DNA of 64,000 nucleotides from Branchiostoma floridae (Eukaryota; Chordata; Leptocardii; Amphioxiformes; Branchiostomatidae), in NCBI RefSeq assembly GCF_000003815.2, contig NW_023365802.1:47333-111332 (forward strand). Reading direction: 5' to 3'. A model generated the notes under the pieces. The model did not search any database. It was not told the DNA's origin and saw nothing but the letters and a program-made list of their open reading frames with translations. Position numbers and translations under genes: made by a program. Of the stretch, positions 23,985-46,460 are shown piece after piece. Position 1 is the stretch's first letter. The number at the start of each line of letters is the position of its first letter.

Positions 23985-25515
23985 TGTACAAACCAGCCTT
24001 TTCCCCTCTCTGTCTGTCTGCAACCCTGTCTGGCTTCATTTTTGTCCGTCTGCAACCCTGTCTGGCTTCTTCTTTAACTACCTGCCTCATTGTCTGTCCG
24101 CAAGCCTGTCTGTCTCCCTCTCTGTCTGTCTGCAACCCTGTCTCGCTTTGTCTTTGTCTGTCTGCCTCTCTGTCTGTCTGCCGCCCTGTCTGCCTTCCTC
24201 TTTGTCTGTTTGCAACCCTGAATTGCCTTTTCTTTGTCTACCTGCCTCTCAGTCTGACTGAAACCATGTCTGGCTTCCTCTTTCTCTGTCTGCCTCTCTG
24301 TCTTTCTGCCTCTCTGTCTGACTGAAACCCATTCTGGCTTCCTTTTTCTCTGTCTGCCTTTCTGTCTTTCTGTAAGCCTGTCTGTCTACCTCTCTGTTGG
24401 TCTGTAACCCTCTCTGGCTTTCTCTTTGTTTATCTTCCTCACTGTCTGACTGCAAGCCTGTCTGGCTTTCTCTTTTTTCTGTCTGCGTCCGTGTCTGTCT
24501 GCAAGCATGTCTGTCTCCATCTCTGTCTGTCTGCAACCCTGTATGGCTTCTTCTTTTTCTGTCTGCCTCCGTGTCTGTCTGCAAGCCTGAATTATTTCGT
24601 CTCTGTCTGTCTGGAACCATGTCTGGCGTCCTCTTTGTCTGTCTGCAACCCTGTCTGGCTTCTTCTTTAACTACCAACCTCCCTGTCTGTCTGCAAACCT
24701 GTATCCTTCCTTCTTTCTTCGTCTGCAATCCTGCCTGGCTTTCTCTTTGTCTGTCTACCTCTATGTCTGTCTCCCTGTCTGCCTGCAAGCCTGTCTGTCT
24801 GCCTCACTGACTGTCTGCAAATCTGTCTGGCTTCCTCTTTGTCTGTCTACCTCCTGGCTGTCGGCAAGCATGTCTGCCTCTTTCTCTGTCTGTCTGAAAC
24901 CCTGTCTGGCTTTCTCTATGTCTGTCTGCAACCCTGTCTGGCTTTTTCTTTGTCTGTCTGCAACCCTGTCTGGCTTTCTCTTTGTCTGCCTGCCTAACTG
25001 TCTTTCTGCAACCATGTCTGGCTTCATCTTTGTCTGTCTTCCTCCTGTCTGTCTGCAAGCCTGTCTGTCTCCCTCTCTGTATGTCTGCAAGCCTGTCCGT
25101 CTCCCTCTCTGTCTGTCTGTCTGCATGCCTGTCTAACTGCCTCTCTGTCTGACTGCAACCCGGTCTAGCTTCTTCTTTGTCTGTCTGCAACCCTGTCTGG
25201 CTTTCTCTTTGTCTGTCTGCCTAACTGTCCGTCAGCAACCTTGTCTGTCTCCCTCTCTATCTGTCTGCAAGCCTGTCTGCCCCTCTCTCTGTCTGTCTGC
25301 AACCCTGTCTGGCTTTTTCTTTGTCTGTCTCCCTCTCTGTCTGCAAGCCTGTTTGCCTCTCTCTCTGTTTGTCTGCAACCCTCTGGCTTTCTCATTGTCC
25401 ATCTGCCCCAATGTCAGTCTGCAAGCTTGTATGTCTCCCTCTCTGTCTGTCTACCTCCCTGTCTGGCTACTTTTTTGTCTGTCTGCAACCCTGTCTGGCT
25501 TTCTCATTGTCTTTT
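23985..25515. repeat. 32-bp minisatellite array B (CTGTCTGTCTGC orientation)
   Basis: Reverse-complement orientation of array A. Segment 24000-24320 follows 14230-13910 (minus strand) almost variant by variant, including the rare TTCTTTAACTACC and CCTGAATTGCCTTTTC. Segment 24320-24600 follows 14600-14240. The TTCTTTAACTACC marker recurs at about 24070 and 24662, giving a higher-order period near 590 bp. The array is interrupted at 25515 by a transposon and resumes in phase at 29185. Confidence 0.96.
25508..25515 (+). repeat. Target site duplication, left copy
   Basis: TGTCTTTT, repeated at 29185-29192. Removing the intervening DNA and one copy restores the normal minisatellite phase (CTCAT, then this octamer, then TGCCTCAATGTCTG). 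Confidence 0.7.
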
Positions 25516-25596
25516 CACCCATGTCCAGTATCAGGGTGAAATGCACGAAGTTGTCCTAAGTTAAGTTAGATGTCTGAAGTTGTCCAAAGTTGTACG

Positions 25597-25709
25597 NNNN
25601 NNNNNNNNNNNNNNNNNNNNNNNNNNNNNNNNNNNNNNNNNNNNNNNNNNNNNNNNNNNNNNNNNNNNNNNNNNNNNNNNNNNNNNNNNNNNNNNNNNNN
25701 NNNNNNNNN
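25597..25709. other. Assembly gap (113 N)
   Basis: Run of N inside the left part of the TIR element, flanked by complementary-looking CCAAAGTTG and AAACTTTGG, so the missing piece may contain a hairpin or repeats. Confidence 0.99.
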
Positions 25710-25834
25710 AAACTTTGGACAGTCAGCATTGCGTGTTTTAGATCAGGTCGCGTATACCTAGGAAGATGTCGCCTAGCTTGACTTTGGCGATATATATACT
25801 CCGCTACTCCGCGTCTACAAGTATTCTGTGTAAC

Positions 25835-25990
25835 GTTCAAATGTCTCAACTGTCATTTCTAGAACCTTTCTTCTAATGTTCTCATCTTCTTAGACGTCAC
25901 AATCTGACGTTTACGTCACTAACTCAGGTGTTTTCGTAATTCGAAACCGGAATGCGTTCTTCGAACGGTGTCGTCGTTTTTCAGTCTAAC
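25835..25990 (+). repeat. Direct repeat, copy 1 (5' flank of P-loop gene)
   Basis: Contains GTCATTTCTAGAACC, TTTACGTCACTAACTCAGG and GGAATGCGTTC. A diverged direct copy lies at 26590-26755 in intron 2 of the P-loop gene. It includes CRE-like half sites (GACGTCAC, TTACGTCAC). Confidence 0.7.
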
Positions 25991-26589
25991 AGTTTGAAAC
26001 CGTGTGGCGATGAAGTCGCCACGGCTACTTTTTAGTCCGTGTCTTTGACGAAATAGACTTTTTTTAACGGGGAATTTACGGACAATATTATATCATATCA
26101 TGTCGTGCAGTAAATCTTTGAAGGCTACAGATCTCCATTCGTCCTGGAAAGTCGAGTTTGACTGGAAGGATTTTCCGGAAGAACTTGTTCAGGTGGGTTA
26201 GTCGTATTAATCGCACCTTGACATGTTTTGAGTTCTGACTTTTGATTCATAAATCTTCTATTCTTTAGAAGTTACATCTTACAAAACAACATATTTTTTA
26301 TCAGAATGCAGATTACTTATCTTTATTAAGATTTGTCTTATTCTTCACAGGGATGTTGTGCTGTTGCATCTGTTTTGTGCGTGCCAACGGTGGCTGTTTT
26401 ATATAGCCTTATCACGGTCGCGGCTTTTGCTGTAAGCCATGCACAAGTCTCTCCACCTGACACCAAATGGAGGGAAAATGTTCTTCTGTGGACAGCCATC
26501 TGTCTGCCAACAGGTAGATTTACTTCTAAACACCTTTTTTATTGTTTCAAATCAAACGTTTGATTCAATGTAGATATAACGTTATATGT

Positions 26590-26755
26590 TCGAAATTTAC
26601 AACCGTCATTTCTAGAACCATACCTTGTCGAACATTCTTTTGCTTAACGTCACCAACAGACATTTACGTCATTTGCTCAGGTGTTTTTTTTTTAAATTCG
26701 AACCTGGAATGCGTTCGTAGAATGGTGTCGTTTTTCAATCTCTGTATTGCGCCAC
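26590..26755 (+). repeat. Direct repeat, copy 2 (intron 2 of P-loop gene)
   Basis: Diverged copy of 25835-25990, sharing CGTCATTTCTAGAACC, CATTTACGTCA, GCTCAGGTGTTTT and GGAATGCGTTCG. Either a duplicated promoter-proximal piece or two insertions of one small repeat. Confidence 0.7.
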
Positions 26756-26934
26756 GACTGCTTTTATTTCATTTGTTCTATTCCTTTTAAACATCTATTA
26801 GCGGGGATCAAAATGACATTTACCTGTTGTCTTGGCAGGCGCTGGGAAATCTACTATCTGTAAATGCGTCGATGTAGGTTAGACATCCAGGTAATAAGAT
26901 ACGCCAAAAATAGTTACTCAAGCAACTGGATATG

Positions 26935-26995
26935 GTTTTGAAACGGTCAGACGTTTCGGAAAGAATCCACTTTCCTTCGTCAGTGACACTGAAGT
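26935..26995 (-). ncRNA. Hammerhead-ribozyme-like motif in left pLTR
   Basis: Minus-strand core CACTGACGAAGG, then a six-base helix GGAAAG/CTTTCC, then CGAAACGTC. Hammerheads need CUGANGA, helix II, GAAA and a cleavage triplet. All these blocks are present, but one extra unpaired A follows CUGACGA, and helix I pairing is weak by eye. Hammerhead motifs are known in Penelope-like elements, which supports the call. Confidence 0.45.
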
Positions 26996-27159
26996 GATCT
27001 GCAAGAAACAGGTCTTTTATACTCTAACTATGAATGAAGACAATTTCAGATGTCCAATAGGAAAGGTTGTAAGACAATTCAGACTGAAGACAATTTGGAT
27101 TCCAAAGATAACAAAGCTAAGCCAAAGTCAAGCTGAAGACAATTTGGATTTCAAAGGAT

Positions 27160-27618
27160 AAACTCAGACGGATCTTCCAAAACTTCAACATCGCCACTAA
27201 CTTCAAACCTCACTCAACCCTCCGACACAAACTGGTACATCCAAAAGACAAACCACAGAAAGGTACTAAGGCCAATGTAATCTACAGACTCAAATGCGAG
27301 GAACCCAACTGTAACAACACATACATTGGTGAGACTAGTCGTCCACTAAAAGCAAGATACCAAGAACATTGCAAACCGAAGGCCAACGGCAACTCTTCTG
27401 CTATTTTCAACCACCTACAACACAACCAAGGACATTCCTTCAACCTCCAATCTACCGACATCCTAGACCGTGAAGCCCGCTGGTTTGAACGGGGAGTTAG
27501 AGAGGCCATATATGAGAGAATATACAATCCCACCCTCAACAGAAAAGGGGGGCTACGTATGGAACTTTCCGGCACTTGGGACATAGCACTACCCCCCCCC
27601 CCCCAACAAAACTTTTAG
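27160..27618 (+). pseudogene. GIY-YIG endonuclease domain of Penelope-like retroelement
   Basis: A plus-strand frame with no start codon (5'-truncated) runs about 150 codons to TAG at 27616-27618. It contains the expected endonuclease order: a CEEPNC cysteine motif within VIYRLKC...NTYIGETSRPLK (the GIY-YIG-like pair and catalytic Arg), a conserved HC and H spaced across the middle, and the C-terminal helix REARWFERGVREAIYER with NPTLN. In Penelope-like elements this domain nicks DNA to prime reverse transcription. The upstream reverse transcriptase is missing, so the copy is dead. Because ATG is absent and both flanks are pLTRs, I mark it as a pseudogene. Confidence 0.85.
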
Positions 27619-27849
27619 CTCCTGTAACTAAAAAAACAACAGGAGCTAATTGACTCATTTGCATTAACTGTGTCTTAGCCTTGATATCCTTTGAAATCCA
27701 AATTGTCTTCAGCTTGACTTTGGCTTAGCTTTGTTATCTTTGGAATCCAAATTGTCTTCAGTCTGAATTGTCTTACAACCTTTCCTATTGGACATCTGAA
27801 ATTGTCTTCATTCATAGTTAGAGTATAAAAGACCTGTTTCTTGCAGATC

Positions 27850-27910
27850 ACTTCAGTGTCACTGACGAAGGAAAGTGGATTCTTTCCGAAACGTCTGACC
27901 GTTTCAAAAC
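27850..27910 (+). ncRNA. Hammerhead-ribozyme-like motif in right pLTR
   Basis: Inverted partner of the motif at 26935-26995, with the same core blocks (CTGACGA at 27862, CGAAAC at 27887) on the plus strand. A possible short stem III is ACG/CGT around TCTGAC. Same caveats. Confidence 0.45.
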
Positions 27911-28076
27911 CATATCCAGTTGCTTGAGTAACTATTTTTGGCGTATCTGTAAATGGATTCAAGAACTTGTGACTGATGTTTACACGAAGTTGCGGAAAGA
28001 CCATACGGACAGTGGTAGTCCGTCTGCTGGGTTTACTTATGTACTAAATGGTGGAAGTACTTCAATTAATTATTAA

Positions 28077-28432
28077 ATTACAAGGAATAACATAACAACT
28101 ACTACTTCTTATGATACAAAGTAGTGAAAGATGACTGCAATACATGTAGTTTATGAATAGATAGGGGAGATGTTTTCAGGTACTTGTATATAGAAGTGAC
28201 GTAAAAAAAAGAATAATATAATATTAAGAGTGAGCTTAAATTATTTTGTGCGCATTGTTAAAACGAACGTTAAGAGGAGAAATAAAAGACAAAAAAGTGA
28301 AATAAATGAAATTTTTTACAATGCATGAACATTGATTTTGTGCTGATTAATGTGCATCTATATTTTATCTGTTTATATGCGTGAGTGGTGTGTATCTTAT
28401 TTACACATATATAAGTTTTTACTATGTATTAA
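28077..28432. other. AT-rich interior of the TIR element, no gene
   Basis: No continuation of the P-loop gene is visible; no splice acceptor leads to a recognisable domain. Confidence 0.45.
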
Positions 28433-29045
28433 TTAACTTTGGACAAATTCGTACACATGCCGCCCTACCCTGCCCACTGTCCAGAGTTAGATGACGTCAC
28501 GTAACTTTGCACAAGTTAGGACAACTTCGCACACTTGTTGACCTACCCTGCCCACTGTCCAAAGTTAGATGACGTCACGTAACTTTGCACAACTTAGGAC
28601 AACTTCGCACACTTGTTGACCTACCCTGCCCACTGTCCAAAGTTAGATGACGTCACGTAACTTTGCACAACTTAGGACAACTTCGCACACTTGTTGACCT
28701 GCCCTGCCCACTGTCTAAAGTTAGATGACGTCACGTAACTTTGCACAACTTAGGACAACTTCGCACACTTGTTGACCTACCCTGCCCACTGTCCAAAGTT
28801 AGATGACGTCACGTAACTTTGCACAACTTAGGACAACTTCGCACACTTGTTGACCTACCCTGCCCACTGTCCGAAGTTAGATGACGTCACGTAACTCTGC
28901 ACAACTTAGGACAACTTTGCACACTTGTTAACCTACCCTGCCCACTGTCCGAAGTTATATGACGTCACGTAACTTTGCACAACTTCGGACAAGTTCGTAC
29001 ACTTGACACCCTACCCTGCCTACTGTACGAAGTTAGATTACGTCA
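28433..29045. repeat. 78-bp tandem repeat with CRE octamers, about 7.5 units
   Basis: Units of exactly 78 bp contain GTTAGATGACGTCACGTAAC, TTAGGACAACTTCGCACAC and CCTACCCTGCCCACTGTCC. The perfect palindrome TGACGTCA (CREB/ATF consensus) starts at 28492, 28570, 28648, 28726, 28804, 28882 and 28960, and an eighth lies outside the repeat at 29060. The array sits subterminally in the TIR element, where transposase or host factors often bind. Confidence 0.95.
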
Positions 29046-29184
29046 TCCAATAAATGTTTTGACGTCATCTGTGACTCCCGATATAGCATCAAAGCCAGTG
29101 GGAAACGGTTGTAACTTAGTACAACTTCGTACAACTTCGTACACCCTAACTTCGTGCACTTCACCCTGATACTGGACATAGCTC

Positions 29185-32100
29185 TGTCTTTTTGCCTCAA
29201 TGTCTGTCTGCAAGCGTCTGTTCACCTCCTTGTCTGTCTGCCTCCCTGTCTGGCTTCATCTTTGTCTGTCTGCCTCACTGACTGTCTTTCTGCAACCATG
29301 TCTGGCTTGCTCTTTGTCTGTCTGCCTCCCTGTCTGTCTGCAAGCCTGTCTGTCTTCCTCTCTGTCTGTCTGCCTCCCTGTCTGTTTTCTTCTTTGTCTG
29401 TCTGCCTCACTGACTGCCTGCAAATCTGTCTGGCTTCCTCTTTGTCTGTCTATCTCCTGGCTGTCTGCATGCCTGCCTGTCTCCCTCTCTGTCTGTCTGC
29501 AAGCCTGCCTGCCTCTCTCTCTGTCTGTCTGCAAGCCTGTCTGCCTCTCTCTCTGTCTGTCTGCAACCCTGTCTGGCTTTCTCATTGTCTGTCTGCCCCA
29601 ATGTCTGTCTGCAAGCGTCTGTCTTCCTCTCTGTCTGTCTGCCTCCCTGTCTGGCTTCACCTTTGTCTGTTTGCCTCACTGACTGTATGCAAATATGTCT
29701 GGCTTCCTCTTTGTCTGTCTACCTCCTGGATGTCTGCAAGCCTACCTGTCTCCCTCTCTGTCTGTCTGCAAGCCTGTCTGCCCCTCTCTCTGTCTGACTG
29801 CAACCCTGTCTGGCTTTCTCATTGTCTATCTTCCCAAATGTCTGTCTGCAAGCTTGTCTGTCTCCCTCTCTGTCTGTCTACCTCCCTGTCTGGCTTCTTA
29901 TTTGTGTGTCTGCAACCCTGTCTGGATTTTTCTTTGTCTGTCTGAAACCCTGTCTGGCTTTCTCATTGGCTGTCTGCCCAAATGTCTGTCTGCAATCGTT
30001 TGTCTTTCTCTCTGTCTGTTTGCCTCCCTGTCAGGCTTCCTCTCTGTCTGTCTGCAACCCTGTCTGGCTTTTTCTTTGTCTGTCTGCCTCACTGACTGTC
30101 TGCAAATTTGTCTAACCTCATTTTGTCTGTCTGCCTACTGTCTGTCTGCAAGCCTGTCTGTCTCCCTCTCTGTCTCTCTGCAACCCTGTCTGGCTTTCTC
30201 TCTGTCTGTCTGCCCCTTGTCTGTCTGCAAGCCTGTCTGTCTTCCTCTCTGTCAGAGTGCAAGCCTGTCTTGCTTTCTCTGTGTCTGTCTGTTTCCCCGT
30301 CTGTCTTCAAGACTGTCTGTCTGTCTTTTTTTCCGTCTGCACCCCTGTCTGGCTTTCTCTTTGTCTGCCTGCCTAACTGTCTGTCTGCAACAAAGTCAGG
30401 CTTCATCTTTGTCTGTCTGCCTCCTGTCTGTCTGCAAGCCTGTCTCTCTCCCTCTCTGTCTGTCTGCATGCCTGTCAGCCTGCCTCTCTGTCTGTTTGCA
30501 ACCCAGTCTGGCTTCTTCTTCGTCTGTCTGCAACCCTGTCTGGCTTTCTCTTTGTCTGCCTGCCTAACTGTCTGTCTGCAACCTTGTCTGGCTTCCTCTC
30601 TGTCTGTCTGCAAGCATGTCTGGCTTTCTCTTTGTCTGTCTGCCTAACTGTCTGTCTGCAACCTTGTCTGGCTTCCTCTCTGTCTGTCTGCAACCTTGTC
30701 TGGCTTTCTCTTTGTCTGTCTGCCTCCTGTCTGTCTGCAAGCCTGTCTGTCTCTCTCTCTATCTCTCTGCATGCCTGTCTGCCTCCCTCTCTGTTTGTCT
30801 GCAACCCTGTGTGGCTTCATCTTTGTCTGCCTGCCTCAATGACTGTTTGCAAATCTGTCTAACTTCCTCTTTGTCTGACTCCTGCCTGTCTGCATGCAAG
30901 TCTGCCTCCCTCTCTGTCTGTCTGCAACCCTGTCTGGCTTTCTCTTTGTCTGTCTACCCCCTGTCTTTCTGCAAGCCTGTCTGTCTTCGTCNNNNNNNNN
31001 NNNNNNNNNNNNNNNNNNNNNNNNNNNNNNNNNNNNNNNNNNNNNNNNNNNNNNNNNNNNNNNNNNNNNNNNNNNNNNNNNNNNNNNNNNNNNNNNNNNN
31101 NNNNNNNNNNNNNNNNNNNNNNNNNNNNNNNNNNNNNNNNNNNNNNNNNNNNNNNNNNNNNNNNNNNNNNNNNNNNNNNNNNNNNNNNNNNNNNNNNNNN
31201 NNNNNNNNNNNNNNNNNNNNNNNNNNNNNNNNNNNNNNNNNNNNNNNNNNNNNNNNNNNNNNNNNNNNNNNNNNNNNNNNNNNNNNNNNNNNNNNNNNNN
31301 NNNNNNNNNNNNNNNNNNNNNNNNNNNNNNNNNNNNNNNNNNNNNNCTGTCTGTAAGCATGTCTGGCTTTCTCTTTGTCTGCCTGCCTAACTGTCAGTCT
31401 GCAACCTTGTCTGGCTTTCTCTTTGTCTGTCTGCCTCCTGTGTCTGCAAGCCTGTCTGTCTCCCTCTCTATCTGCCTGCATGCCTGTCTACCTCCCTCTC
31501 TGTTTGTCTGCAACCCTGTCTGTCTGCAACCCGGTCTAGCTTCATCTTTGTCTGCCTGCCTCAATGACTGTTTGCAAATCTGTCTAACTTCCTCTTTGTC
31601 TGTCTGACTCCTGCCTGTCTGCATGCAAGTCTGCCTCCCTCTCTGTCTGTCTGCAACCCTGTCTGGCTTTCTCTTTGTCTGTCTACCCCCTGTCTGTCTG
31701 CAAGCCTGTCTGTCTTCGTCTCTGTTAGAGTGCAACCATGTCTTGCTTTTTATGTGTCTGTCTGCCTCACTGTCTGTCTGCAAGACTGTCTGTCCTGCCT
31801 CTTTGTCTGTCTGCAACCCTGTGTGGCTTCATCTTTGTCTGTTTTCCTCACTGACTGTCTGCAACCCTGTCTGGCTTCCTCTTTGTCTGCCTCCTGTTTG
31901 TCTGTAAGCCTGTCTGCCTCTATCTCTGTCTGTCTGTCTGCAACCCTATCTGCCAGTCTGGCTTTCTCTTTGTCTGTCTGCCTCCTTGCCTGTCCGCAAG
32001 CCTGTCTGTCTTTCTTTCTGTCTGTCTGCAACCCTGGCTGGCTTCCTCTTTGTCTGTCTCCCTCTCTGTCTGTCTGCAAGTCTGTCTGCCTCGCTTTCTC

Positions 32101-40079: not shown

Positions 40080-40830
40080 AGCCTGGGCTCTACCAGCCGA
40101 AGATACGGTATGGAAGTCAGCCTTGAGAAGACCAAGTGCCTTGTGACTGGCCCGTCAGACACAGTACAGGTTACAGTGAGAGGCACTGACCTAGAACAGG
40201 TTAGTGAATTTACATACCTGGGCTCCCTTCAGACAGAGGACTGCAGTTCTGTGAGGGAGATAAAGGTCAGGATAGCCAAGGCAACCTCTGTACTGTCGAG
40301 ACTTAAGCACATTTGGAATAGTCACAACATCTCCCCGCCAACTAAAATCCAACTTCTACGTTCCCTTGTGCTATCAATTTTCTTGTATGGCGCCAAGGCT
40401 TGGACTTTAAATGCAGAGATTGTAAAACGGATAAACGCATTCGAGATGAACTGCTACCGAAGACTACTTCGTGTCCACTGGTCAACTCACACTTCTAACA
40501 GAGAAGTCATGCAGCGTGTTAATACCCTCGTCGGCCCACGTCCAAGTTTTTTTGTCATTAGTGAAAAAGAAGAAACTACAATGGTTTGGCCCTGCCACAA
40601 GAGCAAATGGTACTTTGACCCACACTATACTCGAAGGAAGGGCGGAGGGTCAAAGACCTAGGGGACGCCCACGTCGGACTTGGACTAGTGATTTGAAAGA
40701 ATGGACGGGACAAACAATCCACGATCTGGCAACCTTGGCTGAGGACAGACAAAGGTGGAAAACTTATGTTGATGGAAGTGCTGCCCCTACGGCCGGTGAG
40801 GCTATTGGACCGGTGAGGTGAGGTGAGGAT
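40080..40830 (+). mobile_element. LINE reverse transcriptase C-terminal fragment
   Basis: Plus-strand frame from about 40080 includes MEVSLEKTKCLVTG, LEQVSEFTYLGSL, IKVRIAKATSVLSRLKHIW, LRSLVLSIFLYGAKAWTL and INAFEMNCYRRLLRVHW, the RT thumb and connection region of non-LTR elements. Around 40520-40560 the frame shifts, and continues as KKKLQWFGPATRANG, GRPRRTWTSDLKEWTG and LAEDRQRWKTY. The 3' end has a (GGTGA)n tail at 40813-40829. The palm domain with its catalytic box is missing, so the copy is 5'-truncated and dead. Confidence 0.85.
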
Positions 40831-41197: not shown

Positions 41198-42152
41198 TTA
41201 ACCCTATTCAGACCGGGGGGGGGGCTTTTGAGGCCCGCGCCAACTTCGATGTCCTATAACGCCAGAACGACTTACGCTAGAGCCACCAAATTTGGTGAGT
41301 TTTCCTAAAATATTGTTGGCAACAATTTCACGAAGTTTGACAAATTTTCCATTTTTTCGTGTTGCCATGGCAACCGTTTGTTGACAGGCTGTTTTGCCAA
41401 AAATCACTATTTTTGGTTCTAACAATGTATTTTTCACATTTATTTGCTATATTACTGATATTTTGTTACATAAATAAAATCTTATACTATTTAGCATATC
41501 TTTCATAATTATATATGCATAAATTATGCTAATTTGATGACGTCATCAGCCCAAAATCCAAGATGGCGGACCGTTTGGCCAGATCAAGAATAACAAGCTA
41601 ATTATCCCTGAAAATTTGTAACTACCTGGTATTTTTCATCAAAAACCATCTAAATAAATGAATAGAGTCTATTTCCATTGCCCTTTGTGATTATTTGTTG
41701 CAAAAAAAGTATTTTTCAAAATTCAAGGTGGTGGATATAATATGGCGGAGCCCAACTGGTATCTTAGATGTGCATGACGTCATTTAATGACGTCATTTTG
41801 ACGTCATTGATGTTGCTATTGGCAACGCAAGTCGTAATAAACATTATTATTCTGTTATCTGCACTTTTTGTTACATTTTTGTAGAATAACTTGAAGTTTT
41901 GTGAGAATACCCTTTTTTCATGGGTCCGGCCAATATAATCAAAATGATGACGTCATAATTACGTCATCTTACGTCAACGTAACGTCAAACGTAAAATACT
42001 TGCCAGATATTATGTCGATATCATGTCCTAAAAATTTTGTGGCCTTACGGTACGTCGTTTCAGAGTTATAGGACTTCAAAGTGGAGGGCCTCAAAAGCCC
42101 CCCCCCCCCCGGTCCAGGGATGACCAAAAAAGCCCGGTCTGAATAGGGTTAA
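41198..42152 (+). mobile_element. TTAA-flanked non-autonomous DNA transposon, copy 1
   Basis: Flanked by TTAA at 41198-41201 and 42149-42152. Termini are CCCTATTCAGACCGG and its inverse; inside them inverted GGCTTTTGAGGCCC/GGGCCTCAAAAGCCC-type arms contain poly-G and poly-C runs. The body is AT-rich with many GACGTCA blocks and no ORF. A TTAA target is the rule for piggyBac and Kolobok elements. A second copy lies in inverted orientation at 57131-57955. Confidence 0.85.
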
Positions 42153-46295: not shown

Positions 46296-46460
46296 TAGCA
46301 AACGTCCACAACGACGGTTAGGCATCCAGGTACAGATAAACTCGACATAAAAGTTACTCAAGCAATTTACAAAGTTTTGTTGACGGCCATACCTTTAGGC
46401 AAAATTTGTTGTCTTTCGTCAGTGACTTTATACTTCACGTTTTTATTTTATTGCCTTATG
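46296..46460. mobile_element. Penelope-like pLTR fragment, different family
   Basis: GGTTAGGCATCCAGGTA, AAAGTTACTCAAGCAA and CTTTCGTCAGTGAC occur in the same order and spacing as in the pLTR of the Penelope-like element at 26.9-27.9 kb, but the intervening sequence differs. The hammerhead-like core is degraded here (CTGACGA kept, GAAAC lost). No ORF. Confidence 0.65.

Follow-up and report, generated by a model that had tools for sequence, protein, structure and literature searches.

Transposons that end in terminal inverted repeats (TIRs) can capture pieces of genes, and arrays of subterminal repeats in such elements commonly bind the transposase. The tips of hAT elements are of the CAGRG type and Polinton/Maverick elements duplicate 6 bp of their target, while Zisupton elements are described with 8-bp target site duplications (PMC12730594). 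The DUF3987 domain is described as a putative helicase domain that is fused to primases of the all3500 family in bacterial mobile elements (Kazlauskas et al. 2018, PMC5862659), and the papers found to name it in the open-licence literature concern, as judged from titles and the openings of abstracts, bacteria, phages or their mobile elements; we found no paper in that literature joining DUF3987 with Branchiostoma, or with a transposon and terminal inverted repeats, and among the papers listed for amphioxus and metazoan transposons none contains it. Here we describe an element that carries part of a predicted DUF3987 gene in 64,000 nucleotides of Branchiostoma floridae (contig NW_023365802.1), a stretch that we call the window and in which an earlier note had recognised a 3.67-kb insertion in a minisatellite. 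We conclude, with a probability of roughly 0.93, that it is a non-autonomous copy from a family of cut-and-paste DNA transposons with recent activity, because the family has sharp common ends, exact 8-bp duplications, tens of similar dispersed copies and derivatives reduced to ends alone, down to 257 bp.

The decisive proof of the insertion in the window is the existence of other copies of the element. The window's own genome (513 Mb in 431 contigs) was searched with the end pattern, which with up to 3 mismatches allowed gave 159 ends, against none for its reversed control. Patterns specific for the tips gave 73 left-type and 85 right-type matches (reversed control patterns, 0); one of the former has a right tip and five of the latter have a left tip, and with each counted once there are 72 left and 80 right ends. 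The search for further copies with the same ends and 8-bp duplications, which the earlier note had proposed, was therefore positive. Nearest-end pairing gave 60 pairs, one of them a 3-bp artefact of fused ends, leaving 59 candidate pairs of 257 to 6,235 bp, most of them known from end positions alone; no partner was assigned to 12 left and 20 right ends. An exact 8-bp duplication borders all 21 copies examined, the window copy and 20 at other sites: among 20 loci fetched by their left end, 15 have a right end in the fetched stretch and all 15 have the exact octamer, as do all five copies picked by size or end type. The other five left-end loci are L011, L012, L015, L021 and L024; a contig end interrupts L024, and L011 has lost most of its right repeat, yet retains a TAGCTC tip and the duplication. 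The shortest copies read, of 257 and 288 bp, have kept their ends only. Thus the terminal inverted repeats are common to copies at unrelated sites, and the length of the duplication is constant save at the nearest ends of two loci considered below.

The ends of the window element, as set by the other copies, are made up as follows:

25508 to 25515, unstranded: left copy of the 8-bp target site duplication, TGTCTTTT
25516 to 29184, + strand: complete element at its assembled length of 3,669 bp, which includes 113 N and a nested insertion
25516 to 25520, + strand: left tip CACCC, conserved in the family and not inverted relative to the right tip
25521 to 25552, + strand: left terminal inverted repeat, 32 bp
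29148 to 29179, - strand: right terminal inverted repeat, 32 bp
29180 to 29184, + strand: right tip AGCTC
29185 to 29192, unstranded: right copy of the 8-bp target site duplication, TGTCTTTT

The inverted repeats lie where the earlier note had placed them and agree at 31 of 32 bases (no match in 100 shuffles). The insertion itself is established by the genomic copies, but its ends had to be moved outwards to 25516 and 29184, since five conserved, non-inverted bases lie outside each 32-bp repeat; among the 21 copies the left tip is CACCC in 20 and CACTC in one, and the right tip AGCTC in 20 and ATCTC in one. The octamer is present on both sides as the note had it, but taken alone it is weaker evidence for insertion than was first held, because chance octamer matches are common in the array: the surrounding sequence is low in complexity and periodic at 4 bases, random pairs within it share an 8-mer in 11.5% of cases when up to 6 bases of slack are allowed on each side (0.4% without slack), and in the flanking arrays searched TGTCTTTT occurs a third time, at 30322. 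The argument from array phase is strong. Joining the flanks with one octamer removed yields a virtual empty site, 80 bases of which were compared with the array at 49 offsets; the best match is to the intact unit at 29554, with 72 identical bases (the second best, 64, is 8 bases poorer), and the two flanks mapped singly find adjacent best places, at 29554 and 29594; the phase repair on virtual excision that the note had described is therefore upheld.

Copies of the family differ little from one another. Over a block of 1,061 nucleotides in 12 copies, pairwise divergence is 0.1-2.96% with a mean of 1.85%, and the window copy lies 1.14% from the majority sequence. We take the copies to be young because this divergence is low beside a lancelet heterozygosity given as 3.2-4.2% (PMC12500494), and the mean of 1.85% therefore points to recent activity.

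Several observations weigh against a recently active, non-autonomous cut-and-paste family. A second block, of 381 nucleotides in 13 copies, is more divergent (0-5.79%, mean 2.72%; window copy 2.37%). The sample of 21 copies is biased, having been drawn from high-scoring left ends and from extremes of size (the two largest and the two shortest pairs), with one further copy that has two right-type repeats. The 10 kb fetched at each of L012, L015 and L021 contain no right end, L034 and L035 have no left end in the sequence read, and L035 has GCCCG in place of the AGCTC tip. A frameshift interrupts exon 4 of L026, the sole two-ended copy whose DUF3987 gene continues beyond exon 3. No transposase was recognised in the copies read, some of whose frames were scanned with Pfam and others inspected by eye. 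The nearest ends at C10 (1,583 bp) and C11 (3,974 bp), both among the 59 pairs, share no octamer; the outer ends at C10, 32.9 kb apart, share TTACTGAT (C10:1143269-1176197; L058, L039, L060), and those at C11, 8.9 kb apart, share CGCATTAT (C11:13083476-13092384; L057, L061).

Three candidate pairs exceed 6.3 kb, and these outer pairs are two of them. Two such 8-base outer matches are unlikely to have arisen by chance, but they may reflect a split copy or an assembly join. Of the 32.9-kb unit, 17.9 kb at the start and 3 kb at the end were read, on either side of a middle part of about 12 kb. In its left part a left end is followed 1.58 kb on by a right end with a different octamer; beyond lie frames that by eye resemble pieces of a long interspersed nuclear element, a lectin and a mariner element, apparently host DNA, and at the right side no more of the element is present than its final 438 bp. 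A DUF3987 protein query found no match within the unit. Its standing as an autonomous parent is unsupported in the parts read, given the host-like content, the 438-bp right remnant and the lack of a DUF3987 match; it may be a copy of about 1.1 kb split by later DNA, a macrotransposition or an assembly join. The C11 unit, read over 2,201 bases at its left and two stretches of 201 bases, holds a further right end with the octamer AAAATTTT. Two elements are fused tail to head in that unit, with only AGCACAC between their inverted repeats.

The earlier note had seen no transposase in the window element, and the same holds for the copies read. An autonomous copy was sought among the largest pairs (L026, L029 and L030), in L031 with its two right-type repeats, at the lone ends L011, L012, L015, L021, L034 and L035, and in parts of the 32.9-kb pair. 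Pfam, NCBIfam and PHROGs profiles run on frames of the window and the copies gave, beyond the matches reported here, only weak or unrelated ones (for example DUF7475, E 0.035), and a PDB sequence search gave nothing. Frames of L034 that were taken by eye for a pogo-like transposase have no Pfam match, and we do not claim them. The absence of a recognised transposase fits mobilisation in trans but falls short of proof.

The family probably belongs to a named superfamily with 8-bp duplications (hAT, Zisupton/KDZ, P or an unnamed 8-bp class of Repbase), and it may already be catalogued as a repeat. Duplications of 8 bp suit several superfamilies, Zisupton included, and KDZ-like exons are present in the genome, where the KDZ transposase profile (PF18758) has 12 matches. 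However, the nearest of these is about 420 kb from any listed element end, which is only weak evidence against Zisupton/KDZ because derivatives move in trans. A search of the genome for the P-type transposase domain PF21788 found no match, its controls being likewise silent, and the CACCC/GAGCT tips do not resemble the hAT tip.

Although the cargo had seemed to match no transposon type that could be named, its parts can now be assigned: the P-loop exons are those of a DUF3987 gene, the repeats bearing cAMP response elements (CREs) are subterminal arrays, and the palindrome with a GIY-YIG frame is a Penelope-like insertion. The predicted gene lies in the window as follows:

26100 to 26192, + strand: predicted DUF3987 exon 1, 31 amino acids, followed by a GT donor
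26351 to 26513, + strand: predicted DUF3987 exon 2
26839 to 26866, + strand: predicted DUF3987 exon 3, first part, with Walker A (GAGKST), cut by the nested insertion
27956 to 28036, + strand: predicted DUF3987 exon 3, second part, stopping at an internal deletion point relative to the 6.2-kb L026

Exons 1 to 3a of the window match DUF3987 (PF13148) below the cut-off (E 9.5e-4, 18.9 bits), while the spliced exons 1-4 of L026 match it with E 9.9e-14 and 51.7 bits (cut-off 27) and exon 4 of L034 falls just under the same cut-off (E 3.7e-6, 26.8 bits). Exon 1 is retained in 15 of the 21 copies, and more of the gene than in the window copy is carried by L026 and by the one-ended L034 and L035, in both of which the frame of exon 4 is unbroken. 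The note had suggested recovering a full-length copy; L026 extends the gene, but neither a transposase nor a full-length open gene was seen in the copies read. Later exons, read by eye, have no Pfam match. A genome-wide search with the DUF3987 profile found no match at E 0.001, probably because exons were scored singly; a protein query of exons 3-4 found 26 places in the genome, 22 of them in or beside copies of the family (two in L026) and four that are 53-77% identical and contain stops.

Whether the gene is a passenger or a working part of the element can be argued from these places. That it was captured once as passenger cargo and then amplified has a little less than an even chance, in our judgement. 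Other TIR transposons capture gene pieces in this way, and there are diverged DUF3987-like pieces elsewhere in the genome, two of which (L036 and L037) were read and have no related ends, so that the gene may exist outside the element; yet the protein query brought up no closely related donor in the genome, and the gene runs from its predicted first exon onward and is not a random fragment. Two frames of L037 have matches of their own: one at L037:8483-8998, in a locus that also has a decayed DUF3987-like exon, matches the N-terminal domain of a herpesvirus tegument protein (PF04843, E 3.8e-9), and one at L037:6086-6403, which shares its locus with a diverged DUF3987-like exon, matches DUF1280 below the cut-off (E 1.2e-4) and is possibly the second gene of a related mobile element.

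More tentatively, the gene may be the element's own and serve transposition, as an accessory ATPase/helicase beside or partnering the transposase in a full-length element. The concentration of 22 of the 26 matches in or adjoining family copies, with the other four diverged and interrupted by stops, is in agreement with such a role, as is a lean towards synonymous change. When L035 is compared with L026 or L034 over two coding stretches, the ratio of non-synonymous to synonymous change per site (pN/pS) is 0.20-0.62 on small counts, and pooling by hand gives 12 synonymous changes in about 360 sites against 14 non-synonymous ones in about 1,068, in comparisons that share L035 and with a second stretch read by eye that has no Pfam match. 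Against it, the copies read contain no full-length open gene and no transposase, and derivatives that lack the gene have also transposed, so that it is not needed in cis.

The element also carries repeats that lie inside its ends:

25553 to 25728, + strand: subterminal repeats of the left side, akin to the right array but inverted
25597 to 25709: run of 113 N in the left subterminal repeats
28435 to 29045, + strand: subterminal array of the right side, in which a 78-bp unit is repeated 7.8 times, containing TGACGTCA (CRE-like) and AACTTNGNAC decamers
29113 to 29143, + strand: 10-bp repeats AACTTCGTAC adjoining the right inverted repeat

Motif arrays are subterminal on both sides. Where the window has its 113 N, other aligned copies hold roughly 125-295 bases, mostly near 200, and TGACGTCA occurs 1-15 times in each of the 21 copies; a putative CREB-type regulation through these repeats is conceivable. 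Blocks at 25835-25974 (upstream of exon 1) and 26588-26731 (in intron 2) are repeats of each other, 81-83% identical in ungapped blocks, and the same repeat is found in other copies at 74-77% identity.

These observations suggest how the non-autonomous family may be mobilised. A transposase supplied in trans would bind the 32-bp inverted repeats and the subterminal arrays, cut at the CACCC and AGCTC tips and insert the element with an 8-bp staggered cut. A longer ancestral element would have carried the DUF3987 gene, of which the longer members appear to keep decayed versions, and a Penelope-like retroelement later inserted in exon 3 of the window copy. What is unusual here is the DUF3987 gene, together with the asymmetry of the tips and the long units at C10 and C11; a further, unlikely prospect is an animal cut-and-paste lineage whose full-length members pair their own DUF3987 helicase-type ATPase with a transposase, use asymmetric tips and at times mobilise units of 8.9 or 32.9 kb. 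A chance origin of the inverted repeats and octamers within the repetitive array, where octamers match with slack in 11.5% of pairs, is refuted by the exact duplications around all 21 copies, the window copy and 20 elsewhere.

The nested insertion in exon 3 consists of the following parts:

26855 to 26866 and 27944 to 27955, unstranded: 12-bp duplication TATCTGTAAATG flanking the Penelope-like insertion
26867 to 27943, + strand: nested Penelope-like element, truncated, with GIY-YIG coding sequence
26897 to 27160 and 27685 to 27948: inverted arms of 264 nucleotides resembling pseudo-long terminal repeats (pLTRs), 100% complementary
27277 to 27405, + strand: part of the Penelope-like frame (residues 53-95) matching the GIY-YIG domain, PF01541

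The GIY-YIG match (E 3.6e-4, 21.2 bits) is just below the curated cut-off of 22.6. The insertion was seen in no other copy read, and its site is empty in nine of the 20 others (the remaining 11 gave no match to the site), which is why we regard it as a later arrival. It adds 1,089 bp; without it the window copy would measure about 2,580 bp, like eight of the nine empty-site copies (2,576-2,746 bp), the ninth being L026 at 6,235 bp. The length of 3.67 kb given previously is therefore right for the element as assembled but describes a composite, a family member of about 2.58 kb plus the Penelope-like insertion. No reverse transcriptase match was found in the 165-residue GIY-YIG frame, the sole frame scanned, and at 1.08 kb the insert could not accommodate a complete Penelope frame. 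NCBIfam gave for this frame only a weak match to TIGR01453 (E 0.019). A hammerhead ribozyme was sought in the pLTR without an Rfam match at E <=1, and the pLTR folds no better than shuffled sequence (z -0.52); an Rfam match inside the insert to the snoRNA snoZ7 (E 0.38, below the cut-off) was taken as chance. By eye, 46310-46430 of the window resembles the outer part of a Penelope-like arm (GTTAGGCATCCAGGTA...) and may be another copy of that retroelement group.

Elsewhere in the window, a second element of about 0.95 kb (41198-42152) has TTAA beside matching inverted ends CCCTATTCAGACCGG (at 41202 and 42134-42148) and is presumably a piggyBac- or Kolobok-like non-autonomous element. A frame at 40080-40830 resembles by eye the C-terminal part of the reverse transcriptase of a non-LTR retrotransposon.

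Our findings place an insertion that had lacked an explanation in a young and defined transposon family, which has fixed ends, a derivative structure and a DUF3987 gene; the youth of the family makes insertion polymorphism testable in living lancelets. A multi-exon DUF3987 gene in an animal TIR transposon points either to transfer of the gene into a eukaryotic transposon or to an unusual enzyme within one. Compared with known systems, the family shares its 8-bp duplication with hAT elements but differs from them in its tips, and the length of that duplication separates it from Polinton/Maverick elements. It also agrees in this length with Zisupton/KDZ elements (PMC12730594), but none of the 12 genomic KDZ matches is near a listed element end. 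The truncated insert of about 1.08 kb in the window copy has the GIY-YIG-like coding sequence, inverted pLTR-like arms and short target duplication of Penelope-like retroelements, and as a later arrival is no part of the transposon. The lancelet gene resembles DUF3987 proteins in the Walker A region and the stretches that follow (profile positions 7-52, 134-213 and 188-241), but it is split by introns and lies inside an animal TIR element. The family also resembles non-autonomous TIR DNA transposons and miniature inverted-repeat transposable elements with 8-bp duplications, with which it shares short inverted ends, internal deletion derivatives, high similarity among copies and subterminal repeats; it departs from them in its conserved but non-inverted tips (CACCC and AGCTC), its long arrays of 78-bp CRE-bearing units and the DUF3987 gene of its longer members.

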